Positions 1 through 14,228 of a stretch of DNA of 64,000 nt are shown here, one piece after another. A program made the translations under genes and the position numbers. Every line of letters starts with the position of its first letter. Position 1 is the first letter of the stretch. This DNA comes from Myxococcus eversor (GTDB lineage: Bacteria; Myxococcota; Myxococcia; Myxococcales; Myxococcaceae): NCBI RefSeq assembly GCF_010894455.1, contig NZ_JAAIXY010000025.1, positions 1 to 64,000 of the forward strand. The letters run 5' to 3'. A model generated the notes under the pieces. It was not told where the DNA came from, did no database searches, and was given only the letters and a program-made list of their open reading frames with translations.

Positions 1-1
1 G

Positions 2-3000
2 GGGGACAGGGTGGGGCTGTGCATGGAGCGCTCGCTGGAGCAGATGGTGGGAGTGCTGGGGATATTGAAGGCGGGGGCGGCATACGTGCCGCTGGACACG
101 AAGTACCCGGCGGAGCGGCTGGGGTACATGGTGGGGGATGCGAAGGTGGTGAGGGTGTTGACGAAGGTGCGTCAGCGAGAGGCCCTGCCGAAGTGGGCGC
201 GCGAGTTGGCGCTGTGCGTGGATGAAGAAGCGGGGGAGGTGGCGAAGCGGCCGGACATGACGCCACCGAGGGCGGTGCCACCGGGAGGCACCTGCTACGT
301 GGTGTACACGTCGGGGAGCACGGGGAAGCCGAAGGGCGTGGCGCTGTCACACGCGGCGCTGTGCAACCTGCTGCTGTGGCAGCGGGCGCACTCAGTGAAG
401 GCGGAGGCCACGACGTTGCAGTTCGCGTCGCTGAGCTTCGATGTGTCCTTCCAGGAAATCTTCTCGACGTGGAGCGCGGGAGGGACGCTGGTGGTGCCAC
501 CAGCGGCGCTGAGGCAGGACGTGCCGGCGCTGCTGGACTTCATGGTGAGTCACCGGGTGGAGAGACTGTTTCTGCCCTTCGTCGCGCTGCAGGCGCTGGC
601 GGACGCGGTGGCGCACGGGGCGAGCGTGCCGTCGTCGTTGAAGGAGGTGGTGACGGCGGGAGAGCAGTTGCAGGTGACGCCCGCGGTGGTGGCCTTCTTC
701 GAGAAGCTGCCGGGGTGCGTGCTGGAGAACCAGTACGGCCCGTCGGAGACGCACGTGGTGAGCGCGCACCGGTTGAAGGGGCCACCGGCGAGCTGGCCGA
801 GGCTGCCGCCGATTGGAGTGCCGCTGCCGGACACGAAGCTGCTGGTGTTGGACGGGCAGGGGAGGCTGTGTCCGATTGGAGTGGCGGGAGAGCTGTACAT
901 CGGCGGGGCGCAGTTGGCGCAGGGGTACCACGAGAGGGCGGAGCTGACGGCGAGGCGCTTCGTGCCGGACGGGTACACGAGGGAGGCGGGGGCGAGGCTG
1001 TACCGGACGGGAGACAGGGCGAGGTGGAGAGGGGACGGGGTGGTGGAGTTCCTGGGCCGGCTGGACGCGCAGGTGAAGGTGCGGGGCTTCCGGGTGGAGT
1101 TGGGGGAGGTGGAGGCGGCGCTGCGGGAGTTGGCGGGAGTGAGGGACGCGGCGGCGGGGGTGCACGAGGACGCGCCGGGGGACAAGAGGTTGGTGGGGTA
1201 CGTGGTGTTGAGGGCGGGGGCGGCGTGGGAGCCGGAGGTGCTGAGAGAGGCGCTGGCGAGGAAGCTGCCGGAGCACATGGTGCCGCCAGCGTTGATGAAG
1301 CTGGAGGCGCTGCCGCTGACGCCGAGTGGGAAGCTGGCGCGAGGGAAGTTGCCAGCGCCGAACGTGGAGAGTCTGCGCGGCGCGGCGCCCTTCGTGGCTC
1401 CACGAGACGAGATGGAGACGCGGTTGGCGGAGGCGTTCGCCTCGGTGCTGAAGCTGCCGCGTGTCAGCGTCACCGACAGCTTCTTCAGCATGGGCGGCCA
1501 CTCCCTGCTGGCGACGCAGCTGGTGTCCCGCCTCCGCTCCCAGCTCAAGGCGGAGGTGCACCTCAAGACGTTGTTCGAGGCGCCCTCCGTCGCCGCGCTG
1601 GCCAGACGACTCGAGTCTTCGCCGCGTGAGCCGCTGAGCGTGCTGCCGCCGCTGGTGCGTGCATCGCGTGATTCACTCCCGCCGCTGTCGTATTCCCAGG
1701 AGCGGCTGTGGAGGTTGTTCAAGGCAAACCCCACGTCCACGGCCTACAACCAGCCCGCGGCGTACCGGTTCAAGGGCGCGCTGAAACTGGATGCACTCCG
1801 CGCCGCGGTCCAGGGCCTGGTGGACCGCCACGCGTCGCTGCGCACCACGTTCAGCGAGGTGGACGGCAGGCCGGTGCAGAAGGTCGCGGAGTCGATGCGA
1901 ATCGACCTGCCGCTGGAAGACTTCCGAGGGCGGGAGGACGCGGAGACGGAGTTGCTCCGGCGAATCGCCGAGGACGCACGCCGGCCCTTCGACCTCACCC
2001 GTGGGCCGCTCGTGCGCGGCTCGCTCATCCGGCTGGCGGATGACGAACACCTGTTCATCTTCAGCAAGCACCACATCCTCTCGGACGGCTGGTCGGAGAG
2101 CATCATCACCCGCGAAGTGGTGCACCTGTACTCCGCCTTCGCGCGGGGCGAGACGCCCAGGCTGCCGCCGCTCGACATCCAGTATCCGGACTACGCGGCC
2201 TGGCAGCGCCGATGGCTCTCCGGCGCCGAACTGGAGACGCGGCTGGACTACTGGCGCGGTGCCCTGGCCAAGGCCCCGAAGCTGCTGAACCTCCCTGTCG
2301 ACAAGCCCCGGCCCGATACCCGCACCTTCAACGGCACGTCGATCTCCGTCTCGCTGGGACGCGCGCGCAGCGACGCCCTCAACCTGCTCTGCCAGCGGGA
2401 GCGGGTGACGCCCTTCATGGCGCTCCTGTCGCTCTTCGGCACCCTGCTGTGTCACCGGGCGCGCCAGGAGGAGATCGTCATCGGCTCGCCCATCGCCAAC
2501 CGGGCGCTGCCGGAGCTGGAGTCGCTCATCGGCCTCTTCGTCAACACCGTGGCCCTGCACGTGGACCTGCGCGGCAACCCGAGCTTCCGTCAGCTCCTGT
2601 CGCGGGTCCGCGACGTCACGCTGGGCGCCTACGCGCATCAGGAGGTGCCCGTCGACCAGGTGGTGGACACCCTCGTCCCCCAGCGACAGCTGAACCGGGC
2701 GCCGCTCTTCCAGGTGATGTTCGTCCTCCAGAACACGCCCATGGAAGCGCTGGTGCTCCCGGAGCTGACCCTGGTCCCCATGCCCGCGGACCGGGGCGCG
2801 TCCATCTACGAACTCACGCTGTCGCTGCAGGAGCGCGCGGATGGCTTCTCCGGCTTGCTGGAGTTCAACACCGACCTCTTCGAGCCCGACACACCCAGAC
2901 GTCTGCGCGAAGCCTTCACCGTGCTCCTCGAGCGGGTGCTGGCGTCGCCGGACCTGTCGGTGGGAATCGATGCGGTGGTCCCCGGATTCGAAGTGCAGGA

Positions 3001-3004
3001 GTGA
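2..3004 (+). CDS. Non-ribosomal peptide synthetase, 3' part (A-PCP-C)
   Basis: The frame is open from base 2, so the 5' end lies outside the window. The order is adenylation domain (entering at core A2), carrier protein, condensation domain. Adenylation cores seen are LKAGAAYVPLD, YTSGSTGKPKG, FDVSFQEIF, NQYGPSETH, YRTGDRARW and the terminal Lys in PSGKL. The carrier motif GGHSL has its phosphopantetheine Ser about 498 residues in. The condensation domain has HHILSDG near residue 690 and SLIGLFVNT. Nothing follows it: no thioesterase, reductase or further A domain. Aligning by eye to GrsA gives a pocket of roughly D-V-Q-F-V-A-Q-V-V-K, closest to proline-type codes; this is inference. Arg codons AGG/AGA and G-ending codons dominate up to about base 1380, then give way to the C-ending codons normal for the rest of the window. 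Confidence 0.95.
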   Translation, partial: GDRVGLCMERSLEQMVGVLGILKAGAAYVPLDTKYPAERLGYMVGDAKVVRVLTKVRQREALPKWARELALCVDEEAGEVAKRPDMTPPRAVPPGGTCYVVYTSGSTGKPKGVALSHAALCNLLLWQRAHSVKAEATTLQFASLSFDVSFQEIFSTWSAGGTLVVPPAALRQDVPALLDFMVSHRVERLFLPFVALQALADAVAHGASVPSSLKEVVTAGEQLQVTPAVVAFFEKLPGCVLENQYGPSETHVVSAHRLKGPPASWPRLPPIGVPLPDTKLLVLDGQGRLCPIGVAGELYIGGAQLAQGYHERAELTARRFVPDGYTREAGARLYRTGDRARWRGDGVVEFLGRLDAQVKVRGFRVELGEVEAALRELAGVRDAAAGVHEDAPGDKRLVGYVVLRAGAAWEPEVLREALARKLPEHMVPPALMKLEALPLTPSGKLARGKLPAPNVESLRGAAPFVAPRDEMETRLAEAFASVLKLPRVSVTDSFFSMGGHSLLATQLVSRLRSQLKAEVHLKTLFEAPSVAALARRLESSPREPLSVLPPLVRASRDSLPPLSYSQERLWRLFKANPTSTAYNQPAAYRFKGALKLDALRAAVQGLVDRHASLRTTFSEVDGRPVQKVAESMRIDLPLEDFRGREDAETELLRRIAEDARRPFDLTRGPLVRGSLIRLADDEHLFIFSKHHILSDGWSESIITREVVHLYSAFARGETPRLPPLDIQYPDYAAWQRRWLSGAELETRLDYWRGALAKAPKLLNLPVDKPRPDTRTFNGTSISVSLGRARSDALNLLCQRERVTPFMALLSLFGTLLCHRARQEEIVIGSPIANRALPELESLIGLFVNTVALHVDLRGNPSFRQLLSRVRDVTLGAYAHQEVPVDQVVDTLVPQRQLNRAPLFQVMFVLQNTPMEALVLPELTLVPMPADRGASIYELTLSLQERADGFSGLLEFNTDLFEPDTPRRLREAFTVLLERVLASPDLSVGIDAVVPGFEVQE

Positions 3005-3012
3005 GCGCCGTC

Positions 3013-4227
3013 ATGGAACTCAAGAATCGCTATCGCAACACCGAGTCGATGATTGGCCACGGCAATCCATCCTTCACCGCCGCGAAAGAGGCGGGGCTGC
3101 TGGACTTGTCCGTGCACAACACCGGACGCGGCTCGCTCTCACTGCCGGATGGCCGTGAGTTCATCAACACCTGCTCATGTTCGTACCTGGGGCTCGATTC
3201 GCACCCGGACGTGCTCCAGGGCGCCATCGACGTCCTCCAGCGCGAGAAGACGATGACCATGTCCATCTCCCGTCTGCGCGTGCGACTGGCGGACCTGGAT
3301 GCGCTCGAGGAGGAGCTGACCCACCTCTGGCGCGTGAAGACGGTGGTCACCAACTCCGCCAGCTCCGCCAGCGCGGGCCTGCTGCCCCTCATCGCCTCCG
3401 GACACCTGCTGCCGGATGGACAGAAGCCCATCCTCGTCTTCGACAAGTCCGCGCACTTCTCGATGAACCTCATCAAGCCCATCTGCGCGGATGAAACCCA
3501 CGTCGTCACCGCGCCCCACAATGACTTGAACTTCCTGGAGGACCTCTGCCGCAAACACGCGCGCGTCGCGTATGTCGCGGATGGCTTCTACTCGATGGGC
3601 GGCGTGGCCATCGTGAAGGACCTGTTCGCCCTCCAGGACAAGTACGGCCTGTTCCTCTACTTCGATGACTCCCACTCGCTCTCCATCTACGGCGGCGCGG
3701 GAGAGGGCTACGTGCGCGCGACGATGGAGGGCGAGGTCAACCCTCGCACCATCATCATCGGTTCGCTGGGCAAGGGCTTCGGCACCGCGGGCGGCGCCAT
3801 CATGCTCGGGCCCAAGCACCACGCGGACCTGGTGGGCCGCTTCGCGGGACCGCTCGGCTGGTCACAGAGCCTGGCGATTCCAGCCATTGGCGCCAGCGTG
3901 GCCTCCGCCCGCCTCCACGGCGCCCCCGAACTGGCCGCGCGGCAGAAGGCCCTGCGCGCCAACGTGCGCTACTTCGACGAGCGGGTGCGCACCCGGACCT
4001 CGGGCGAGGACTTCCCCATCAAGATCATCGACGTGGGGCCCGAGGCTGTCGCCGTGGAGTACTCGCGCAAGCTGATGGAGCGGGGCTTCTACTCGTCGGC
4101 GGTGTTCTTCCCCATCGTCCCGAAGGGGCGGGCGGGGCTGCGCATCATGCTTCGCTCCAACATCTCTTCCGAGGACCTCCAGCGACTCTGTGACGTCGTC
4201 CTGGAGCTGACCTCGCCCGGCACCTGA
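3013..4227 (+). CDS. Alpha-oxoamine synthase family PLP enzyme
   Basis: 404 aa. The family (5-aminolevulinate synthase, KBL, 8-amino-7-oxononanoate synthase, CqsA, PigH) joins an amino acid to an acyl thioester with loss of CO2. The fold-type-I marks are present: Asp218 and His221 in FDDSHS, and the Schiff-base lysine Lys254 in GSLGKGFGT followed by a GG pair. ATG 3013 has AGGAG at 2997-3001 inside the NRPS end; an in-frame GTG at 3001 overlapping the NRPS stop is the alternative. Either way it is coupled to the synthetase and followed 20 bp on by the CitE-like gene. Inference: it either releases a carrier-bound acyl chain as an aminoketone or uses an acyl-CoA made by the next three genes. 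Substrates cannot be read from the sequence. Confidence 0.88.
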   Translation: MELKNRYRNTESMIGHGNPSFTAAKEAGLLDLSVHNTGRGSLSLPDGREFINTCSCSYLGLDSHPDVLQGAIDVLQREKTMTMSISRLRVRLADLDALEEELTHLWRVKTVVTNSASSASAGLLPLIASGHLLPDGQKPILVFDKSAHFSMNLIKPICADETHVVTAPHNDLNFLEDLCRKHARVAYVADGFYSMGGVAIVKDLFALQDKYGLFLYFDDSHSLSIYGGAGEGYVRATMEGEVNPRTIIIGSLGKGFGTAGGAIMLGPKHHADLVGRFAGPLGWSQSLAIPAIGASVASARLHGAPELAARQKALRANVRYFDERVRTRTSGEDFPIKIIDVGPEAVAVEYSRKLMERGFYSSAVFFPIVPKGRAGLRIMLRSNISSEDLQRLCDVVLELTSPGT

Positions 4228-4247
4228 GCCAAGGAGCCACGCGCATC

Positions 4248-5138
4248 ATGACCATGCCCTTGCAGTGCAGGTCCTTCCTGGTGACTCCCGCCATCGACCC
4301 CTCGCGCTTCGACAAAGCGCTGGAGGTGGGGGCGGACATGGGATTGCTGGACCTGGAGGATGGCGTCCCCGAAAGCCTCAAGAACGAGGCGCGCCGACTG
4401 GCCATCTCCTACCTCTCCACTTCGAGACCGCGCGGGCCCCTGTGCCTGCGCATCAACAGCCTGCGCACCGAGGCGGGCCTTCGCGACGTGCTCGCCCTCC
4501 TGGACTCCAACGCCCGGTTGGAGGCCCTGCTGCTGCCGAAAGTCGAATCCCCGTCGGAGATTCATCAAGTGGAGGCGCTGCTCGGCGAGCGCTTCCCGGA
4601 AATGTCCCTGCTCGCCATCATCGAGACGGCGCGCGGCGTGGAAGCGGTGGACGCCATCGCCATGTCCACCCCCCGCCTGCGGGGCCTCATCTTCGGCGCC
4701 GCGGACCTGTCCGCGCAGCTCGGCGTCCCCCTGGCCTGGGAGCCGCTGCTCTACGCGCGCTCCCGCATCGCCATGGCGGCGACCATCGCCGGGGTGAGCG
4801 CCATCGACTCGCCGTTCTTCGACCTGGAGGACCTGGCGGAGCTGGAGGACGAGACGCGCCGGGTCTGCGCGCTGGGCTACACCGGGAAGATTGTCATCCA
4901 CCCGGACCAGGTGGGCGTCGTCCACGCGGCGCTGCGGCCCACCGCGCAGATGGTGGCCCATGCGCGGCGCGTGCTCGCACAGGCGGGGGACGGAAAAGGC
5001 GGCATCCACGTCGTCGGAGGGAGCATGATTGGTCCTCCGCTGGTGACGGTGGCTCGGCGCGTCCTGGCCAGCGTCCAGCTCGAGGAGGCCCTGTCACCCG
5101 TCCAACTCCGGGCGGGCTCCAGGAGTGGAGACTCATGA
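4248..5138 (+). CDS. CitE-like lyase/aldolase (HpcH/HpaI family)
   Basis: 296 aa, usual length for CitE-like acyl-CoA lyases. These Mg-dependent TIM barrels make or cleave malyl-CoA, citramalyl-CoA, beta-methylmalyl-CoA or HMG-CoA. Visible marks are LLDLEDGVP near residue 35, LLPKVES, the metal-ligand Glu in IIETARGV, FGAADLS with its metal Asp, and the late GKIVIHPDQ motif. No catalytic residue appears lost. AAGGAG at 4231-4236 precedes ATG 4248. Its stop overlaps the start of the MaoC gene by four bases (ATGA), so the two are translationally coupled. A CitE-like/MaoC pair also occurs in itaconate/leucine dissimilation (Rv2498c-Rv2499c) and in the ethylmalonyl-CoA pathway. Here it sits in an NRPS operon, suggesting synthesis of a special acyl-CoA. 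Confidence 0.88.
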   Translation: MTMPLQCRSFLVTPAIDPSRFDKALEVGADMGLLDLEDGVPESLKNEARRLAISYLSTSRPRGPLCLRINSLRTEAGLRDVLALLDSNARLEALLLPKVESPSEIHQVEALLGERFPEMSLLAIIETARGVEAVDAIAMSTPRLRGLIFGAADLSAQLGVPLAWEPLLYARSRIAMAATIAGVSAIDSPFFDLEDLAELEDETRRVCALGYTGKIVIHPDQVGVVHAALRPTAQMVAHARRVLAQAGDGKGGIHVVGGSMIGPPLVTVARRVLASVQLEEALSPVQLRAGSRSGDS

Positions 5139-5662
5139 AGAAACTGGTGGCCGCCCACAAGAAGGTGGGCAAGCAGCGCTACCGTGAGACACACGGCCTC
5201 TTCTACGAGGACTTCGAGGTGGGGGACGTCTTCGAGCATCGTCCGGGGCGCACCATCACCGACGTGGACAACATGTGGCAGTCCCTGCTGAGCCTCAACA
5301 CCCACCCGCTCCACATCGACGCCGTCTACGCCAGCAAGACGGAGTGGAAGCAGCCGCTCATCTCCAGCCTCGTCACGCTGGCCATCGTCGGGGGGATGAG
5401 TCTGAACAGCACCAGTGCCAAGGGCGTGGCGAACCTCGGGTGGGATCGCATCCGGTTGACGGCCCCCGTCTTCGTGGGGGACACCCTGTACGCGGAGAGC
5501 CGTGTGCTGGCGAAGCGGAAGTCCCGCTCCCGCCCGAAGCAGGGAGTCGTCACCGTGGAGACCCAGGGCCTCAAGGCGGACGGCACCGTCGTGATGACCT
5601 TCGAGCGCTCCTTCCTCGTGCCCTTGCGGCGCCATGGCGTGGATGTGGATGCGAACTACTGA
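5135..5662 (+). CDS. MaoC-like hydratase, mesaconyl-CoA hydratase type
   Basis: 175 aa single hot-dog protein, start fixed by the ATGA overlap with the CitE-like gene. The opening GLFYEDFEVGD and later NLGWDRIRL and VFVGDTLYAES are typical of MaoC proteins. The usual catalytic signature (G-D-x-N-P-x-H) reads LNTHPLHID here, the variant I associate with mesaconyl-CoA and itaconyl-CoA hydratases rather than R-specific enoyl-CoA hydratases. It should add or remove water on a branched C4/C5 dicarboxylyl-CoA, which suits the lyase encoded just upstream. The following reductase begins 4 bp after its stop, so all four genes from 3013 to 6647 probably share one transcript. Confidence 0.85.
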   Translation: MKKLVAAHKKVGKQRYRETHGLFYEDFEVGDVFEHRPGRTITDVDNMWQSLLSLNTHPLHIDAVYASKTEWKQPLISSLVTLAIVGGMSLNSTSAKGVANLGWDRIRLTAPVFVGDTLYAESRVLAKRKSRSRPKQGVVTVETQGLKADGTVVMTFERSFLVPLRRHGVDVDANY

Positions 5663-5666
5663 AGTG

Positions 5667-6647
5667 ATGACGGCGGTGGTGGTTCGGACCCCAGGTGGTC
5701 CAGAGCAGCTTCACCTGGAAGAGATGCCCCGCCCCACTCCCGCCCCTGGTCAGCTCCTCGTCAGGGTGCGCGCCTCCGCTCTCAACCGCACCGACACCAC
5801 GCAGCGCGCGGGCGGCTATGCGCTGCCTCCAGACGTCACCAGTCCGCTGCTCGGCGTGGAGGTCGCCGGTGTCGTGGAGGCCGTGGGGCAGGGCGTCCGC
5901 GCCTTCGTGCCCGGCCAGCGCGTCTTCGGCCTCGTGGATGGCGGCGGGTACGCGGAGGCGTGTTTGATGGAAGAGGGCATGGCGGTGCCCATTCCAGAGG
6001 GCTGGTCCTTCGTCGAGGCGGCGGCCACGCCGGAGGCGTACTGCACGGCGCACGAGTCCCTGCTGGAGCTGGGCGGGCTCGCCTCGGGTCAGTCCGTGCT
6101 CATCCATGCGGGTGGAAGCGGAATCGGCACCGCCTGCATCCAGGTGGCGCGCTCGGTGGGCGCGCGGGTGTTCATCACCGCGGGCACGGAGGAGAAGAAG
6201 CGCCGGTGTCTCGCGCTGGGCGCGGACGCGGGCGTGGTGCGCACCCAGGAGGACTTCGCGCCAGCGCTCGCGCGGTGGACGCAAGGGCGCGGCGTGGACC
6301 TGGTGGAGGACTTCGTCGGCGGCGCGGCGCTGGAGCGCAACCTGGCCTCACTGCGCCTGGGCGGGTGTCTGCTGCTGGTGGGGCTGATGGATGGAATGCG
6401 CGGGGACATCGACTTGAAGCAGGTGGTGCTGCGCCGGCTTCAAATCAAGGGCATGGCCCTGCGTCCGTTGCCGCTGCCCGCCAAGCTGGCCGTCATGCGG
6501 CGCTTCCAGGAGCGGTGGCTGCCGGAGCTCGTCGCCGGCAGGGTCCGCCCCGTCATCGACTCCACCTTCCCGCTGGCGCGCGTGGCGGATGCTCACCGCC
6601 ACATGGAGTCCAACGCGAGCTTCGGAAAGATAGTGCTGGAACTCTGA
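5667..6647 (+). CDS. Zinc-free MDR: NAD(P)H quinone oxidoreductase / enoyl reductase (PIG3-like)
   Basis: 326 aa from ATG 5667; a GTG at 5664 and ATGs at 5634, 5643 and 5649 inside the MaoC gene are less likely starts. GroES-like N-terminus with ALNRTD and GVEVAG, then the cofactor fold with the dinucleotide motif HAGGSGIGTACIQVA near residue 140. The zinc-binding Cys/His set of alcohol dehydrogenases is not evident, so it belongs with quinone oxidoreductases and enoyl reductases. As last gene of the operon it could reduce the unsaturated CoA ester made by the MaoC protein before the oxoamine synthase uses it; this is inference. It converges on the cyclodeaminase gene with a 3-bp gap. Confidence 0.87.
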   Translation: MTAVVVRTPGGPEQLHLEEMPRPTPAPGQLLVRVRASALNRTDTTQRAGGYALPPDVTSPLLGVEVAGVVEAVGQGVRAFVPGQRVFGLVDGGGYAEACLMEEGMAVPIPEGWSFVEAAATPEAYCTAHESLLELGGLASGQSVLIHAGGSGIGTACIQVARSVGARVFITAGTEEKKRRCLALGADAGVVRTQEDFAPALARWTQGRGVDLVEDFVGGAALERNLASLRLGGCLLLVGLMDGMRGDIDLKQVVLRRLQIKGMALRPLPLPAKLAVMRRFQERWLPELVAGRVRPVIDSTFPLARVADAHRHMESNASFGKIVLEL

Positions 6648-6650
6648 GGC

Positions 6651-7751
6651 TCAGCTCCCCGTGGCCAGACGGACGTCCCGCTTCGGCGCGGCCTCCGGCG
6701 TGTGCAGCAGCGCGTAGGGGTCCAACGCGTCGCCGCCGACCGTCTCCAGGCCCACGGAGGTTCCCAGGCCCAGCCGCTCCGCGTGCTTGAGGAAGAGCGC
6801 GGTGACGACCTGGTCCTCCAGCGCGTAGCCGGTGGAGTCGAACACGGTGGGCTTCTCCCGCCACGGCTCGTACACGTCCGGGTTCTTCACCAGGGTGATG
6901 AGGTCCGGGCCCACCTGGTCGGGGCGGATCTGCTGGCACTCGCCCTCCACCAGGCACTGCACCGTGAAGTCGGGGCACACCAGGCTGCGCTCCAGCAGCG
7001 ACTTCGGCAGCTCCGTCTTGCCGGGCAGGTCGGAGCCCACGGCGTTGATGTGCACGTGCGGCTTGAGCTTCTTCTCGGAGAGGACGGGCCCGCCTCCCAC
7101 GGCGACGGAGGTGGCCGTGCAGATGATGTCCGAGCGCTCCTCCAGCTCCGCCAGGGGGACAATCTTCACGTTCAGCCCGAGGAACGCCGTGCGGCGCGCG
7201 AACGACTCCTGCGCCTCCGGATTCGTGTCGTAACCGAGGACCTCGGTGATGGGGAACAACCGGCTGATGGCGTGGAGCTGCGTCACCGCCTGGGCTCCGC
7301 AGCCAATCAAGCCGATGACGCGGCTGTCGGGCGAGGCCAGGCAGCGCGTGGCCACCGCGGAGGCCGCGCCCGTGCGCAGCGCCGTGGCGAAGACGCCGTC
7401 CATCAGCGCGATGAGGTGGCCGGAGCGCACGTCATAGAGGCTGTTGGTCGCGATGATGGTGGGCAGCCCCCGCTCCTCGGGGTTGTGAGGGCTGTAGCTC
7501 ACCATCTTCACCGTCACCGCGTGCCCGCGCTGCATCACCGGCATCCACTCCAGACACCCCGGCTGGCGCGCGGATTCCAACAGGAAGCCGTCCCGTTTGC
7601 GGACCTCCGTCTGCTCCCCATCGAAGGTGCGCAGCGCTTCGGTCAGCGCGTGGATGAGTTCGTCCATCAGCGCGTTCGCGCCGACCTCCTCCACGATGCA
7701 GCGCAGGTCGGACCGAGTCACCAACAGCGTCCGTGTCGCGTCGCTCTTCAC
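6651..7751 (-). CDS. Ornithine cyclodeaminase / mu-crystallin family protein
   Basis: 366 aa, NAD(P)-dependent family. The Rossmann motif GLIGCGAQA lies in the middle, followed by a conserved Asp-Thr-Asn turn (GYDTN), with the substrate-domain KMVSYSP Lys near residue 80. Members turn ornithine into proline, lysine into pipecolate, reduce cyclic imines, or make diaminopropionate (SbnB type). Beside an NRPS whose pocket looks proline-like, precursor supply is a reasonable guess. It is transcribed toward the NRPS operon from a 157-bp gap carrying a 12-bp palindrome, so it is probably a separate unit. The exact reaction cannot be told by eye. Confidence 0.88.
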   Translation of the reverse strand: MKSDATRTLLVTRSDLRCIVEEVGANALMDELIHALTEALRTFDGEQTEVRKRDGFLLESARQPGCLEWMPVMQRGHAVTVKMVSYSPHNPEERGLPTIIATNSLYDVRSGHLIALMDGVFATALRTGAASAVATRCLASPDSRVIGLIGCGAQAVTQLHAISRLFPITEVLGYDTNPEAQESFARRTAFLGLNVKIVPLAELEERSDIICTATSVAVGGGPVLSEKKLKPHVHINAVGSDLPGKTELPKSLLERSLVCPDFTVQCLVEGECQQIRPDQVGPDLITLVKNPDVYEPWREKPTVFDSTGYALEDQVVTALFLKHAERLGLGTSVGLETVGGDALDPYALLHTPEAAPKRDVRLATGS

Positions 7752-7856
7752 TCGAGATACCCCTGGGCTGAATCACTGTTTCAGCAGCTCACGCGCGAAA
7801 CAGGGCCTGCTGATAACACAGGTCTGTAGTGGGGGCGCAAACTAGCAGGGCTTTCG

Positions 7857-7868
7857 TGTTCGCGAACA
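7857..7868. promoter_or_regulatory. 12-bp perfect palindrome upstream of the cyclodeaminase gene
   Basis: TGTTCGCGAACA is a perfect inverted repeat 106 bp upstream of the cyclodeaminase start, in the only non-coding space between it and the FGE gene. Possible operator; no cognate regulator is visible nearby. Confidence 0.3.
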
Positions 7869-7908
7869 GGGGGGGCTCAACCCGGCGAAAACTGGAGTAT
7901 TTGCAGGG

Positions 7909-8943
7909 TCATCGCTCCGTGACGTGAACGATGCAGCGGAATCCGATGTGTGTGGTTCCGCTGTCAACGGCCTGCGGAGAACGCGCCGCGGGGCGGTAGC
8001 GCAGGCAGTAGTTGGACGCGCAGAGGTGGCTTCCGCCCTTGAGGACGCGGCGCGGAATCTTCACCTGCGGCGTGCAGGGGTCGAAGCTCGCGCCGTGCGA
8101 CGGAGGGCCTCGGGGATTGACGGGGATGCAGCACGCCTTGCCCCCGTTGCCCTGGTGGCGCTCCTGGAACCAGTCCGTGGTCCACTCCCAGACGTTGCCA
8201 GCCATGTCGAACAGGCCGTACCCGTTGGGTGGGAAGCTCCCCACTGGCGAGGTCCCCTCGAATCCATCCGTGTTCAAGTTCTGCCAGGGGAACTCTCCCT
8301 GCCAGATGTTCGCCATTTGCTGCCCTTCCGGTGAAAACTCGTCTCCCCAGACGTAGACCTTGCGGTCCAGGCCGGCGCGCGCGGCGCGCTCCCATTCGGC
8401 CTCGCTGGGGAGGGCCTTGCCGACCCATGCGGCGTAGGCCTCCGCGTCCTCGTAGGCGACGTGGACCACGGGATGTGACTCTCGGCCCTTCCAGGTGGTG
8501 CCGTGGCCCTCCGGCTGTTTCCAGCAGGCGCCGGGCGTGTAGGCCCACCAGTTGGACAAGTCCTTCAGGTCCACGCGCTGAGCCGTCTTGCGGAACACGA
8601 GGGCGCCGGGCACGAGCAGCTCCGGCGCCGCGCCCGGGAAGTCGTCGGGATTCAGGGGGCGCTCGGCCACGGTGAGGTAGCCCGTCGCGTCCACGAAGCG
8701 CGCGTAGTCGGCGTTCGTCACCGGATGGCGGTCCATCCAGAAGCCGCTCACCGTCACCTGGTGCTCGGGCCGCTCCTCCGGATAGTGGCGGTCCGAGCCC
8801 ATCCAGTACGTGCCCCCGGGGATCCACGCCATGCCGGGGAACGGCGCTTCACCGGGCGCCGCATTCGTGTCGACCTCGTTCTCGGGGCGCGACACTCGCG
8901 ACTCCAGTTGCGTGGCTCCCTCGACGACATCCGTGCTGCTCAT
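7909..8943 (-). CDS. Formylglycine-generating enzyme (SUMF1 family), complete active site
   Basis: 344 aa from ATG 8943, which has GAGG seven bases upstream; a longer frame to 9258 is Arg/Pro-rich and unlike the family. Family landmarks run from GGTYWMGSD through LPSEAEWERAARAG, GNVWEW and RVLKGGSH to the terminal GFRC. Unlike many SUMF1-fold proteins (EgtB, PvdO types), it keeps the copper-binding active-site pair: Cys308 and Cys313 in LCASNYC, matching C336/C341 of human FGE, followed by a YRPAARS stretch. It should oxidise a Cys in CxPxR of a sulfatase-type substrate to formylglycine. No sulfatase or arylsulfatase-like gene lies in this window. Confidence 0.92.
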   Translation of the reverse strand: MSSTDVVEGATQLESRVSRPENEVDTNAAPGEAPFPGMAWIPGGTYWMGSDRHYPEERPEHQVTVSGFWMDRHPVTNADYARFVDATGYLTVAERPLNPDDFPGAAPELLVPGALVFRKTAQRVDLKDLSNWWAYTPGACWKQPEGHGTTWKGRESHPVVHVAYEDAEAYAAWVGKALPSEAEWERAARAGLDRKVYVWGDEFSPEGQQMANIWQGEFPWQNLNTDGFEGTSPVGSFPPNGYGLFDMAGNVWEWTTDWFQERHQGNGGKACCIPVNPRGPPSHGASFDPCTPQVKIPRRVLKGGSHLCASNYCLRYRPAARSPQAVDSGTTHIGFRCIVHVTER

Positions 8944-9218
8944 CTGGCGCCTCGTTCCGTGGAGGGGACTCGATGAGTTCCCCAGGCGGCAAGCTGGGTG
9001 GCCCCGGCGCGCGCGACAAGCCGGCCCTCCAGGGTGGGGCTCCCGAGGCGACGCACGGAGCAGACGCGGTCCGGGCACCCGGTCCTGCGAGCGCCCGGCG
9101 TGGAGCCGCCGCGCGGATTGGCGGCCTGTGCACGCGTGGACAACGTCCTCTCGCCAACGCGGTTCGACCCGAACCGACAGCCCCGCGAGCGGTGGGCGGC
9201 GGATGGAGCGCGACGGAC

Positions 9219-10892
9219 ATGAGCACCGACACGACGACCGAGACGCAGACGGGCGCACTTCGAGACGACGAGACGCCCGACACGCGAGCGCTGCAAAAGC
9301 TCAGCCCGTTCGAGCTGAAGGACACGCTCATGACGCTGGCGGATGAGTCCGCGAAGACGCGCGCGGCGGTGATGCTCAACGCGGGCCGGGGCAATCCCAA
9401 CTGGATCGCCACCACGCCGCGCGAGGCGTTCTTTCTCTTGGGCCAGTTCGCGCTGCGCGAGTCGCGTCTGACGTGGAACGAGCCGGACGTGGGGCTCGCG
9501 GGCATGCCGAGGTCCCCGGGCATCGCCGCGCGACTGCGGCGCTTCCTCGACGAGAGCGACGACAGCGCGGCCATCCGGCTCCTGAGAGACTCGGTCAACT
9601 ACGGCGTCTCCAAGCTGGGCTTCGACGCGGACAAGTTCGTCTGGGAGCTGACCGACGCGGCCATCGGCGACAACTATCCGGTGCCGGACCGGATGCTCGT
9701 CCACGCCGAGAGAATCGTGCGGGCCTACCTGGCCCAGGAGATGTGTGACAACCGTCCGCCGCCGGGGAACTTCGACTTGTTCGCCGTCGAGGGTGGCACC
9801 GCGGCGATGACGTACGTCTTCCGTTCTCTGATGGTGAACGGCCTGCTCCAGAAGGGCGACACCATCGCCCTGGGAACGCCCATCTTCACGCCGTATCTGG
9901 AGATACCGCGCCTGGAGGAGTTCGACCTGCGCACGGTGGACATCCGCCAGAGCGCGATGACCGAGGAAGGCCGCCACGCGTGGCAGTATCCGGAGTCGGA
10001 GCTGCGCAAGCTGGAGGACCCGCGCATCAAGGCGTTCTTCGTCGTGCACCCCGGCAACCCCGGCGCGACGGCCATGCGGCGCGAGTCATTGGACCTGCTG
10101 GTGGACCTGGTCCGCACGAAGCGGCCCGACCTGCTGCTGCTCACCGACGATGTGTACGGAACCTTCGTCGAGGGCTTCCGCTCACTCGCCGCCGAGCTGC
10201 CGCACAACACGCTCCTGGTCTACTCGTACTCGAAGCACTTCGGGTGCACCGGGTGGCGCCTGGGCGTCGTGGCGCTCCACGAGGACAACATCATCGACTC
10301 GATGATTGCCCGGCTGCCGGAGGGCCAGCGGGAGATGCTCAACGAGCGCTATGGCTCAATCACCCTGGAGCCGGAGCGGCTGAAGTTCATCGACCGGATG
10401 GTGGCGGACAGCCGCGCCGTCGCCCTGAACCACACCGCGGGCCTGTCCCTGCCGCAGCAGCTCCAGATGAGCCTCTTCTCGCTGTTCGCCCTGCTGGACA
10501 AGGACGACGCGTACAAGAAGCGCTGCCGGCGAATCTGCCGCGACAGGCTCGCGGGCTTGTACCAGGGCATGGGAATCGACCTGCCCGAGGACCCGCTGCG
10601 CACCGCGTACTACCAGACGTTGGACCTGGACGTGTGGGCGCGAAAGAACGTGGGCCAGGACTTCGTCGAGTACGAGGAGTCGCGGCATGACCCGCTCGAC
10701 ATCGTGCTCTCCCTGGCGCGACGGCACGGCGTGGTGCTGCTCAACGGCAGCGGCTTCGAAGGGCCGGAGTGGTCGGCGCGGGTGTCGCTCGCGAACCTGG
10801 ATGACGACGAGTACCCCCGCATCGGCCAGAGCCTGAAGGACATCGTCATCCGCGCCATCGCGGAGTGGAAGGGCCGCGACCTGGACTCGTGA
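9219..10892 (+). CDS. aspD: Aspartate 4-decarboxylase (bifunctional with aspartate aminotransferase)
   Basis: 557 aa from ATG 9219 (GGAG at 9205-9208); the frame stays open further upstream but without family similarity. The opening LSPFELKD and MLNAGRGNPN, and the length well above the ~400 aa of ordinary class-I aminotransferases, identify the AspD/AsdA family, which converts L-aspartate to L-alanine plus CO2. The PLP lysine is Lys339 in YSYSKHFGCTGWRLG, and the pyridine-binding Asp is in LLTDDVYG. Divergent from the FGE gene across 275 bp and only 37 bp ahead of asparaginase. In lactic acid bacteria AspD works with the antiporter AspT to make proton-motive force; an AspT-type gene lies 11 kb downstream. 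Confidence 0.93.
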   Translation: MSTDTTTETQTGALRDDETPDTRALQKLSPFELKDTLMTLADESAKTRAAVMLNAGRGNPNWIATTPREAFFLLGQFALRESRLTWNEPDVGLAGMPRSPGIAARLRRFLDESDDSAAIRLLRDSVNYGVSKLGFDADKFVWELTDAAIGDNYPVPDRMLVHAERIVRAYLAQEMCDNRPPPGNFDLFAVEGGTAAMTYVFRSLMVNGLLQKGDTIALGTPIFTPYLEIPRLEEFDLRTVDIRQSAMTEEGRHAWQYPESELRKLEDPRIKAFFVVHPGNPGATAMRRESLDLLVDLVRTKRPDLLLLTDDVYGTFVEGFRSLAAELPHNTLLVYSYSKHFGCTGWRLGVVALHEDNIIDSMIARLPEGQREMLNERYGSITLEPERLKFIDRMVADSRAVALNHTAGLSLPQQLQMSLFSLFALLDKDDAYKKRCRRICRDRLAGLYQGMGIDLPEDPLRTAYYQTLDLDVWARKNVGQDFVEYEESRHDPLDIVLSLARRHGVVLLNGSGFEGPEWSARVSLANLDDDEYPRIGQSLKDIVIRAIAEWKGRDLDS

Positions 10893-10929
10893 GGTTCCGT
10901 GACGCCCACCCCGAATCGAGAGGTCCGCC

Positions 10930-12078
10930 ATGAACAGTTCGAAGAACACGGTGCGAGGGCTGCTGTGCGCGCTGGGCTTGCTGCTGACGGGCGCTGGAAT
11001 CGCGGCGCAGGAGAGCCCGCCGCCGACGAACCCGGGCTCGTCGAAGGACTCGCCGAACACCGAGGAGGCGCGGGCCAAGAGCCCCGAGGAGATGGCCTCC
11101 GTGCGCATCCTCGCCACGGGCGGCACCATCGCCGGGGCGCAGGGCAATCCCCAGGGCTACGGCTACAAGTCCGGCGCCTTCAAGGTCGAGGACCTCATCA
11201 AGGCCGTCCCCAACCTCGACAAGGTGGCGAAGCTGACCGGTGAGCAGGTGGCGAACATCGGCAGTCAGGACATGAACGACGCGGTGTGGCTGAAGCTGGC
11301 GAAGCGGACCAACGAGCTGCTCGCTTCGCCGGACGTGGACGCCGTCGTCGTCACGCACGGCACCGACACGCTGGAGGAGACGGCGTACTTCCTGGACCTG
11401 GTCGTCAAGAGCGAAAAGCCCGTCGTGCTCGTGGGCTCCATGCGTCCGGCCACCGCCATCAGCGCGGACGGGCCGGGCAACCTCTACAACGCGGTGTCGG
11501 TGGCGGCGTCCCCCGAAGCGAAGGGGCGCGGGGTGCTCATCGTCATCAACGATGAAATCCACACCGCGCGCAACGTCACCAAGACGAACACCACCAACGT
11601 GGAGACCTTCCGCAGCCCGAACCGCGGCCCCGCGGGCGTCGTCAACACCGGGGAGGTCCACTGGTTCGAGCGGATGGACAAGAAGCACACCGTGGACTCG
11701 GAGTTCTCCGTCACCGGCAAGAACACGCTGCCCCGGGTCGACATCCTGTACGCCCACGCGAACATGAGCCCGGACCTCATCGACTCGGCGGTGAAGAACG
11801 GCGCCAAGGGGCTGGTCATCGCGGGGGTGGGGGACGGGAACATGACCCAGCCGGCGCTCGACACGCTGGCCCGGCACGTGAAGAAGGGCGTGGTGGTGGT
11901 GCGCAGCACGCGACTGCCCAGCGGGCTGGTGTTGCGCAACAACGAAATCAACGACGACCAGAAGGGCTTCGTGGCCTCCGGTGAGCTGAACCCGGCGAAG
12001 TCGCGCGTGCTGTTGCAGCTGGCCCTGCTGGAGACCAAGGACCCGACCCGGGTGCAGCGGATGTTCGAGGAGTACTGA
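10930..12078 (+). CDS. ansB: Type II L-asparaginase, exported
   Basis: 382 aa. The N-terminus has basic residues, a hydrophobic run (LLCALGLLLTGAGIAAQ) and a cleavage-like AAQ, so it should be secreted to the periplasm; a disordered Ser/Pro linker follows. Both asparaginase signatures are present: ATGGTIAG with nucleophile Thr63, and VVTHGTDTLEET with Thr142 and Asp145. The active-site Lys lies further on in the family. It hydrolyses asparagine to aspartate and ammonia outside the cytoplasm. The AspD gene ends 37 bp upstream and the following membrane-protein ATG overlaps this stop by one base, so the three genes probably form an operon. Confidence 0.93.
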   Translation: MNSSKNTVRGLLCALGLLLTGAGIAAQESPPPTNPGSSKDSPNTEEARAKSPEEMASVRILATGGTIAGAQGNPQGYGYKSGAFKVEDLIKAVPNLDKVAKLTGEQVANIGSQDMNDAVWLKLAKRTNELLASPDVDAVVVTHGTDTLEETAYFLDLVVKSEKPVVLVGSMRPATAISADGPGNLYNAVSVAASPEAKGRGVLIVINDEIHTARNVTKTNTTNVETFRSPNRGPAGVVNTGEVHWFERMDKKHTVDSEFSVTGKNTLPRVDILYAHANMSPDLIDSAVKNGAKGLVIAGVGDGNMTQPALDTLARHVKKGVVVVRSTRLPSGLVLRNNEINDDQKGFVASGELNPAKSRVLLQLALLETKDPTRVQRMFEEY

Positions 12079-13229
12079 TGGCCAGCTCCCGCCTGCTCCC
12101 TGACTTCTCCCTGGTGAGGGGAGGACCCCTCTTCGAGCTGGAGCGCGGCCTGCACCTCATCGGGCCGCCCCGGTTCAAGGCCTGGCGGGCCGCGCTGTGC
12201 TTCACGCTCGTGAGCTGGGCGCCGCTGGCGCTGCTGACGCTGTTGCAGGGCGCGGGAGCCATGCGTCTGTTCCTCGCCGACTACCAGGTGCATGCGATGC
12301 TCCTGCTGTCGCTGCCCGTGCTCGTGGCGGCGGAGCCGTACATCGACAGCCGCGTCGGGGCGGCGGCGCGGCAGTTCCTCCGCGCGGCCCTGGTGGAGGA
12401 GAAGGACCGCGCGTCGTACGAGGCCATGGCTCGGGGACTGACGCGGTGGCGCGATGCTCCGCTCGTCGAGCTGCTGTTGCTGGGTCTCGTCATCGCGCTC
12501 GCGCTCATCTCCACGCCGGACCCGGCGAGGCAGTGGAGCATGGTGGCGGACCCGACGCCCCGACTGTCGCTGGCGGGCGGGTGGTACGAGTACGTGAGCG
12601 AGCCCCTGGCGCGCTTCCTCGTGTTCCGGTGGATATGGCGCGCCTTCGGCTGGGGCGTCTTCCTCCTGCGCGTCTCCCGGCTCCCGCTCCGGCTGGTTCC
12701 CACCCATCCGGACCTGGCGGGCGGGCTGGGTTTCCTCGCCATCTGTCAGGCCAGCTTCGCGCCGGTGGTGTTCGCGGTGGCGGTTCCCGTCGCCGCCTAT
12801 TCGTTCCGGACCAATGCCTCGGCCATCACCGAGTCCCCCCTGGACTACGTGATGCCGCAGGTCCTCTACACCGTCCTCGCCTGCCTCGCGGTGTTCGCCC
12901 CGCTGGCGTTCTTCTCCCGGCAGCTCGTGCACGCCAAGCGGCAGGGCGACCCGTGGTTCTCCGCGGTCGCCGCGCACCACTCGCGCCGGTTCGAGGACAA
13001 GTGGTTCCGCCGGAATCCAGGCGTGGATCCGCTGAGCTCGGAGGACTTCTCGTCACTGGCGGACCTGGGCACGTCCTTCGTGGTCGCCCGGAGGATGAAG
13101 CTGTTTCCCTGGGACCAGCGCTCGCTCATCGCGGTGGCGGCGGCGGGCCTGGCGCCGCTCGCCATCCTCCTGGTGCTCGACAGGCAATTCCTCGCGGTGG
13201 TGTCCCAGCTCAAGAAGAGCCTGAGCTGA
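12078..13229 (+). CDS. Conserved membrane protein, unknown function
   Basis: 383 aa; its ATG shares one base with the asparaginase stop (TGATG). I see six or seven hydrophobic segments, beginning near residues 40-60 (LCFTLVSWAPLALLTLL) and 75-90, with pairs around 135-150, 225-255 and 275-300, and one at the C-terminus. Charged stretches between them include a long soluble loop at about residues 305-350. No catalytic or transport motif is recognised. Coupling to asparaginase suggests a part in amino-acid or membrane physiology, but nothing more specific is supported. Confidence 0.8.
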   Translation: MASSRLLPDFSLVRGGPLFELERGLHLIGPPRFKAWRAALCFTLVSWAPLALLTLLQGAGAMRLFLADYQVHAMLLLSLPVLVAAEPYIDSRVGAAARQFLRAALVEEKDRASYEAMARGLTRWRDAPLVELLLLGLVIALALISTPDPARQWSMVADPTPRLSLAGGWYEYVSEPLARFLVFRWIWRAFGWGVFLLRVSRLPLRLVPTHPDLAGGLGFLAICQASFAPVVFAVAVPVAAYSFRTNASAITESPLDYVMPQVLYTVLACLAVFAPLAFFSRQLVHAKRQGDPWFSAVAAHHSRRFEDKWFRRNPGVDPLSSEDFSSLADLGTSFVVARRMKLFPWDQRSLIAVAAAGLAPLAILLVLDRQFLAVVSQLKKSLS

Positions 13230-13337
13230 GCCTTGGCGGGCGCCCGGGTGCCCGGGTGCCGTGGGCTCCCTCGAGGAGGTGGCGGTGAGGATAACTATCC
13301 GGGGGCTCCACTGCGCGCCGCCCGCGAGGAGGCGAGC

Positions 13338-14228
13338 ATGCTCAGGTCCGTGATCGCATTCGTGTTGGGCAACATCGTGACCCTGTTCATGTTCACCGAG
13401 GGACTGGCGCGCCGTCCCGGGGAGATTCGTCACGTCCTGGAGCGCCCCGCGCTCTACGTGCGCGCCCTGGTGGTGGTGTTGCTGCTGGTGCCCCTGGTCG
13501 CCCTGGCGGTGGTCAAGGTCTTCCATCTGCCGACGGTGGTGGCGAGCGCCATCCTGTTGATGGCCGTCTGTCCCGGCGCGCCGCTGCAGGTGAATCAGGC
13601 GAAGGCGCTCGGCGCGAATCCCTCTACCTCCATCAACCTGCTGCTCCTGTTCAGCGTGTTCGCGCTCATCACCGTGCCGCTCTGGGTGATGGGCGTGGAC
13701 CGGTTGCTCGGCGTCGAGTTCAAGGCGAGCCCGGACCTGGTCTTCCGCCTGCTGGCGGTGAAGATCCTCCCGCCGCTCGCGGTGGGCATCGCCGTGCGCC
13801 ACTACGCCCCGAACGTGGCCAAGGCCCTGGCGCCGTGGTGCGGCAAGGTGTTCAGCGTGCTGTTGCTCGCCGTGTCCGTGGGGGTGCTCTTCATCGTCGG
13901 GCCCAGGCTCATCCACATCGCGTGGATCGCCATCTTCGCGTTGGTGGTCATCATCACCGTGTCGGTCCTGCTCGGGCACTGGGCCGGAGCGCCCAGGCTG
14001 GAGGACCGCAAGGCGGTGGCGCTGGCCACGGCCTTCGCGAACCCCGTGCTGGCCATGACCATCATCATCCAGAGCTATCCCAACTACCGGGCCCTGGAGG
14101 TCGCGGGCGTGGTGGGGGCCTACATCGTCATCCGGTTGCTCGCGCTCACTCCCTACAAGTTCTGGGTGAAGCGTCAGCGCGATTCGGAGCCCTCGCGGCA
14201 CGCGCCGTCGGATGGCGTCCCGGTGTGA
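13338..14228 (+). CDS. BASS/SBF-like transporter (bile acid:sodium symporter family)
   Basis: 296 aa from ATG 13338, preceded five bases away by GAGGAGG. About nine or ten hydrophobic helices; the central CPGAPLQVNQAKALGAN resembles the unwound cross-over region of SBF-like carriers. Such proteins move organic anions with sodium. The substrate is unknown; neighbours suggest an organic acid or amino acid. It lies 108 bp after the membrane protein gene and converges on the patatin gene with nine bases between the stop codons. Confidence 0.7.
   Translation: MLRSVIAFVLGNIVTLFMFTEGLARRPGEIRHVLERPALYVRALVVVLLLVPLVALAVVKVFHLPTVVASAILLMAVCPGAPLQVNQAKALGANPSTSINLLLLFSVFALITVPLWVMGVDRLLGVEFKASPDLVFRLLAVKILPPLAVGIAVRHYAPNVAKALAPWCGKVFSVLLLAVSVGVLFIVGPRLIHIAWIAIFALVVIITVSVLLGHWAGAPRLEDRKAVALATAFANPVLAMTIIIQSYPNYRALEVAGVVGAYIVIRLLALTPYKFWVKRQRDSEPSRHAPSDGVPV

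Follow-up and report, generated by a model that had tools for sequence, protein, structure and literature searches.

Homologues of the ketomemicin core genes follow a nonribosomal peptide synthetase ending in a condensation domain in Myxococcus eversor

The core genes of ketomemicin (ktm) biosynthesis make a ketomethylene pseudodipeptide, in which CO-CH2 replaces a peptide bond. In the available text of a 2025 paper (PMC11943689), ktm is a set of six genes (aldolase, pyridoxal phosphate (PLP)-dependent C-acyltransferase, dehydratase, ATP-grasp ligase, amidinotransferase and dehydrogenase), Salinispora tropica CNB-440 is named as a source, the pathway is described as independent of nonribosomal peptide synthetases (NRPSs), and the ketomemicins and arphamenines are given as the only known natural ketomethylene pseudopeptides. 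Here, we analyze a stretch of Myxococcus eversor DNA (the window: bases 1-64000 of C42, a 189 kb contig of an 11.4 Mb genome), in which an acyltransferase, a CitE-like aldolase, a MaoC-type dehydratase and an MDR-family reductase are encoded at 3013-6647, behind an NRPS gene. By sequence comparison, the four genes are homologues of the ktm core, so the gene set has a precedent, and we consider it fairly probable that the cluster makes a peptide ending in a ketomethylene pseudodipeptide, released by the terminal condensation (C) domain of the NRPS.

The four-gene set is real, intact and conserved. As the original prediction had it, four coupled genes are present at the given place; all lie on the plus strand, and all four open reading frames (ORFs) are intact (Table 1). 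The acyltransferase gene starts 8 bases after the NRPS gene and is separated by 20 bases from the CitE gene, which overlaps the MaoC gene by 4 bases, while the MaoC and MDR genes abut or overlap. Compared with the orthologues in a congeneric genome (G072, locus L037), dN/dS is 0.123 for the acyltransferase, 0.174 for CitE, 0.065 for MaoC and 0.175 for the MDR enzyme. The acyltransferase (PRK07505, 510 bits, cut-off 342) and the MDR enzyme (PIG3 family, 355 bits, cut-off 297) exceed the cut-offs of their families, whereas the aldolase (NCBIfam RipC-like, 269 bits, cut-off 375) and the dehydratase (NCBIfam RipB-like, 254 bits, cut-off 340) fall under theirs.

A search of 397 genomes gave a match in 15 at E 1e-60, and two loci, L154 and L160, were found in one genome, G426. 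The ktm-like locus L154 encodes a PreAtp-grasp/PGM1_C ligase, an MDR enzyme, CitE, the acyltransferase and MaoC; its divergent neighbor (4838-5992) has no Pfam match, and by its position alone it is a putative amidinotransferase. The window proteins are 49.9% (acyltransferase, over 403 aa), 44.4% (aldolase, over 268 aa) and 58.6% (dehydratase, over 169 aa) identical to those of L154, and the acyltransferases of both loci score above the cut-off in the same NCBIfam family. No ATP-grasp ligase or amidinotransferase was named by the family scans among the genes between positions 2 and 14228 of the window, the region upstream on contig C53, where the NRPS gene begins, having been read as ORFs only. 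The original prediction knew of no described pathway with this gene set; ketomemicin biosynthesis, as presented in the available part of PMC11943689, is one.

The acyltransferase/aldolase/dehydratase trio recurs in Myxococcota, Actinomycetota, Acidobacteriota and Pseudomonadota. Relatives of the acyltransferase are encoded at 49 loci recovered by a pattern scan of species genomes, and 34 of these have both CitE and MaoC in the flanks, in Myxococcaceae, Mycobacterium, Holophagales, Rhodobacter, Pseudomonas protegens, Dyella, Comamonas, Bdellovibrionales, Nocardia and others. Trees of the acyltransferase (46 rows: 43 hand-picked sequences, near-copies dropped, and three outgroup sequences, with the Holophagales fragment L064 filling 39% of the columns), the aldolase and the dehydratase (35 rows each) give similar groups: the Myxococcaceae type of the window, Mycobacterium with Holophagales, ktm with a second myxobacterial/Dyella type, and one marked by an aldolase-dehydrogenase pair plus ornithine cyclodeaminase (OCD). 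Support for Mycobacterium with Holophagales is 100/97 in the dehydratase, 100/99 in the aldolase and 85/65 in the acyltransferase tree; ktm joins the second myxobacterial/Dyella type at 100/99 in the dehydratase and aldolase trees, with other rows intervening in the acyltransferase tree. The MDR enzyme of the window is 57% identical to that of a Holophagales cassette. The trio has the look of an ancient module, with ktm as the one branch described so far.

The NRPS gene that precedes the cassette is only partly visible. The window holds its 3' portion, in the order adenylation, carrier and condensation, truncated by the contig start; at the end of contig C53 of the same genome lies a stretch that matches, at 97%, the NRPS N-terminal part of a near-identical locus (L039, genome G064, acyltransferase 97%). 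The prediction that the genes directly follow an NRPS stands; that NRPS is itself split, with its N-terminal part on C53. In L039 the NRPS is full length (2726 aa) and ordered T-C-A-T-C-A-T-C (three C, two adenylation (A) and three carrier (T) domains); this module count is that of the relative, the NRPS of the window strain being split between C42 and C53. As hints only, the adenylation codes located by motif look proline-like for DVQFVAQVVK (window and L039) and valine-like for DAFWLGGTFK (L045, L054 and L062) next to known codes. The NRPS was also predicted to have no release domain. It has no thioesterase or reductase family match in Pfam or NCBIfam, but its last domain is a complete C domain with the motif HHILSDG, which makes this prediction only partly correct. 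As an observation on the other contig, the gene for the myxochelin NRPS MxcG (2634 bits, cut-off 2300) lies ∼7 kb upstream of the NRPS start on C53 (L181), on the opposite strand, so that region-based mining could fuse the myxochelin cluster with that of the C53/window 1-3004 NRPS.

This terminal C domain is the feature that sets the locus apart. In 19 of the 23 window-type loci (L102-L124), an NRPS lies directly upstream and ends 0-8 residues after an HHxxxDG C domain; in G080, the NRPS is convergent with the cassette and likewise ends in a C domain. A census of C domains scoring above 80 bits in ORFs of at least 250 residues kept 74, of which 40 were placed in a tree. The terminal C domains of 13 cassette NRPSs, of G080 and of an Archangium cluster with a second gene order (type 2) form one clade (100/100), and 11 internal C domains from the same NRPSs form a separate one (100/100). 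Of the 15 rows labelled terminal beforehand, one (L064) fell outside the clade, while L079, labelled otherwise, fell inside; L079 likewise comes from the end of its NRPS, close to a type-2 cassette. When the terminal C domain of the window was searched against 15 genomes, the matches listed included eight at 54-78% identity, in seven genomes, and the remaining ones were at most 50% identical. Of the eight listed at 54% or more, all but one have a cassette acyltransferase within 11 kb; the exception (G074, contig C119) belongs to a cluster that sits at a contig end and shows the type-2 order of genes. The eight genomes that lack an NRPS-linked cassette (G062, G077, G065, G073, G076, G078, G075 and G018) reach at most 49% among the matches listed. 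At the sequence level, this terminal C-domain subtype is conserved and tied to the cassette. An ATP-grasp protein stands beside the trio in L154 and in a Mycobacterium locus (L063), and the terminal C domain may be its counterpart; the last NRPS domain probably links the product's two halves.

From the observed gene content, ktm homology, trio recurrence and C-domain subtype, we infer substrates, reactions, their order and a product. By analogy with ktm, the reaction details of which were reportedly described in 2017, the aldolase would couple an acetyl- or malonyl-CoA unit with a 2-oxo acid, dehydration of the resulting substituted malyl-CoA would fall to the MaoC enzyme, and the MDR enzyme would reduce the dehydrated ester to a 2-substituted succinyl-CoA. 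The PLP enzyme would then condense this succinyl-CoA derivative with an amino acid, with loss of CO2, to a free gamma-keto-delta-amino acid (an alpha-aminoketone). Following the ktm precedent, an arylpyruvate or similar 2-oxo acid is a likelier partner of the aldolase than glyoxylate. The NRPS would assemble a short, carrier-bound peptidyl chain. Its terminal C domain would then transfer this chain onto the amino group of the keto amino acid, forming an amide and releasing the product without a thioesterase. The first part of this scheme, in which a branched acyl-CoA is built and saturated by the CitE, MaoC and MDR enzymes before the synthase joins it to an amino acid, is what the original prediction proposed; that guess is partly supported, and its chemistry looks largely right, as it coincides with described ktm chemistry carried out by homologous genes.

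Several observations weigh against release of a peptide onto a ktm-like product. Each of the three trees places the window protein (acyltransferase, aldolase or dehydratase) in a clade separate from ktm, and the window's MDR enzyme, only 36% identical to that of L154 over 242 aa, belongs to a different subgroup (PIG3, 355 vs 160 bits). The dehydratase of the window scores higher on the RipB model than that of L154 (254 vs 184 bits), and, on sequence, aldolase and dehydratase alone cannot tell ktm from itaconate enzymes. In the acyltransferase, the loop adjoining the amino acid is SISRLR in the window and VTSTTR in L154; the glutamate enzyme Alb29 has SLSRVR there, so that arginine is not a safe assumption. 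On the NRPS side, the terminal C domain of the Holophagales cassette (L064) is placed outside the terminal clade, no C domain lies within 1.5 kb upstream of the cassette in G062, G074 and G077, and the lack of an NRPS C domain directly upstream in four of the 23 loci means that the cassette can exist without it.

The cassettes of G062, G074 and G077 speak for an alternative in which the four genes suffice to produce a ketomethylene amino acid or pseudodipeptide in free form, and the NRPS belongs to a neighboring pathway, its terminal C domain acting on a different amine. Among the matches listed, G062 and G077 hold no C domain more than 49% identical to that of the window, and putrescine is used by terminal C domains in the available text of PMC10587159. 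However, the gap between the NRPS and acyltransferase genes is only 8 bases, the NRPS linkage holds in 19 of 23 loci, and the C-domain subtype is bound to cassettes of two types; we regard this alternative as unlikely. More doubtful still is direct off-loading of the chain from the NRPS carrier by the PLP enzyme, in the manner of PigH or SxtA, with the remaining genes acting elsewhere. Other alpha-oxoamine synthases use carrier-bound acyl donors, and the original prediction had considered such a lift-off, but the route loses ground because a conserved C domain with an intact motif follows the last carrier, and the PLP enzyme groups with a family recurring beside the CoA-ester enzymes CitE and MaoC. 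Finally, a Rip/Ict-type itaconate or other catabolic CoA-ester pathway, by chance beside the NRPS, would suit the best curated names (RipC for CitE, RipB for MaoC) and the citrate lyase label of the closest solved aldolase relative (3qll), but is very improbable, and Rip-type itaconate catabolism is rejected, given that both scores are below the curated cut-offs (as are both RipB matches in the window's own genome), that no CoA transferase is among the families named for the genes between positions 2 and 14228 (two of them having no NCBIfam match), and that the acyltransferase is constant company.

Table 1. Features of the NRPS-linked cassette and its downstream neighbor in the window.
Feature	Position	Strand	Assignment and remarks
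NRPS, C-terminal part	2..3004	+	Pfam AMP-binding, PP-binding, Condensation; carrier about 1421-1612; 5' part cut off by contig start
Terminal condensation domain, HHILSDG	1682..2965	+	Pfam Condensation, residues 561-988; protein ends 2 residues past domain (local profile)
PLP-dependent C-acyltransferase (alpha-oxoamine synthase), KtmB homologue	3013..4227, 404 aa	+	Aminotran_1_2; PRK07505; 49.9% to L154
CitE/HpcH-type aldolase, KtmA homologue	4248..5138, 296 aa	+	Pfam HpcH_HpaI; 44.4% to L154
MaoC-type dehydratase, KtmC homologue	5135..5662, 175 aa	+	Pfam MC_hydratase, MaoC; 58.6% to L154
MDR-family enoyl reductase, functional counterpart of KtmF	5646..6647 (candidate starts 5634, 5646, 5667)	+	ADH_N, ADH_zinc_N, PIG3 family
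OCD/mu-crystallin family gene, convergent, doubtful cluster member	6651..7751	-	PF02423

The convergent OCD gene was dropped as a defining part of the cassette: only three of the nine myxobacterial window-type cassettes whose flanks were examined (L053-L060 and L062) are labelled with one, and OCD genes adjoin a distant cassette type too. Beyond the cluster, the window encodes an FGE-sulfatase-family protein (7909-8937, minus strand), a family also labelled near four related cassettes (L053, L054, L056 and L059), as well as aspartate 4-decarboxylase and type II asparaginase (9210-12078, plus strand).

Within Myxococcota, the acyltransferase profile matches 52 of 195 genomes (E 1e-70 or better), all in one family. 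The window type occurs in 23 of these, 20 of them within the genus (20 of 27 congeneric genomes). A CitE match of some kind is found in 47 of the 96 genomes of the family, and the cassette's own CitE type (at least 53% identity) in 24. Decay is seen in G059 (L042), where the aldolase is retained and the acyltransferase is down to a fragment of ∼85 aa. The 15 scan loci without both flanking genes comprise four with one of CitE and MaoC (two of them at or near a contig end), two remote relatives at 26%, seven Corallococcus loci with OCD but neither CitE nor MaoC, L061 with an MDR gene only, and L072 with neither. Likewise, neither CitE nor MaoC is annotated or matched beside four annotated plasmid relatives of the acyltransferase; in an unannotated Rhizobium lusitanum record, both adjoin such a relative. 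In the order to which a Neisseriaceae bin belongs (399 genomes searched), four further hits were obtained, none of which could be tied to Chromobacterium.

Other gene orders accompany the trio elsewhere. In L048 (R. lusitanum plasmid, 5834-13673, with family names over cut-off), L070 (P. protegens FD6), L152, L157, L158 and L159, it is encoded with homologues of 4-hydroxy-2-oxovalerate aldolase and acylating acetaldehyde dehydrogenase, and often with OCD; L048 and L070 also include a NodU-like carbamoyltransferase homologue. A role of this cluster type as an antimetabolite pathway is possible. The second locus of G426, L160, is of this other type as well (acyltransferase-CitE-OCD-MaoC). In Dyella marensis (L078), an NRPS-linked cassette has an arginine deiminase/amidinotransferase-family gene (PF02274, 8424-9881) between CitE and the acyltransferase, which recalls ktmE. 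The type-2 myxobacterial cassettes (L075, L079, L166 and L180) sit in a cluster with ketosynthase-like, class-III aminotransferase and thioesterase-like genes (named by eye, except for the aminotransferase, which has a family match), and an NRPS ∼11 kb away ends in the same terminal C-domain subtype as that of the window; an acyl chain in their product is plausible.

We lean, by a small measure, towards a widespread and largely unrecognized pathway class, in which a ketomethylene trio is combined with swappable amide partners (ATP-grasp ligase or NRPS), and in which Myxococcaceae have evolved a dedicated terminal C-domain subtype that accepts the free ketomethylene amino acid, so that release is thioesterase-free and yields new peptide-ketomethylene hybrids, plausibly protease inhibitors. 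No NRPS-coupled ketomethylene cassette with a dedicated terminal C domain was found in the literature searched, and the ketomemicin literature yielded no myxobacterial title and none combining it with Myxococcus, strict term combinations that are weak evidence of absence. The chemistry has a known relative; what looks new is the NRPS coupling through a dedicated terminal C domain. If this holds, ketomethylene chemistry becomes joined to NRPS assembly lines, the terminal C-domain type could be used for adding C-terminal peptide isosteres, and acyltransferase, CitE and MaoC together offer a genome-mining handle for clusters liable to be overlooked by core-enzyme rules, dynaplanin being a reported example (PMC9239090).

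Compared with known systems, the window is closest in its core to the ktm clusters of Actinomycetota, which have a homologous aldolase, PLP acyltransferase and dehydratase, and an MDR-family dehydrogenase, that of L154 being of another subgroup than the window's. Unlike ktm, in which an ATP-grasp ligase forms the amide, the window has an attached NRPS instead. The arphamenines of Chromobacterium violaceum are likewise ketomethylene pseudopeptides by structure, according to the available part of PMC11943689. Alb29 of the albogrisin pathway (PDB 8XHA) is the closest solved relative of the acyltransferase and has a similar loop (SLSRVR vs SISRLR). Dynaplanin biosynthesis shares a KtmB-type acyltransferase, DynZ, in a short cluster; there, however, only dynY and dynZ were needed, and the available text mentions neither aldolase nor dehydratase (PMC9239090). 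The glidonin NRPS provides the parallel for release: as far as the available text of PMC10587159 describes it, a C domain with an amine acceptor carries out the last catalytic step and releases the peptide onto a free amine. In glidonin, the acceptor is putrescine and the module has further domains, whereas the window protein ends after the C domain and its proposed acceptor is a keto amino acid.

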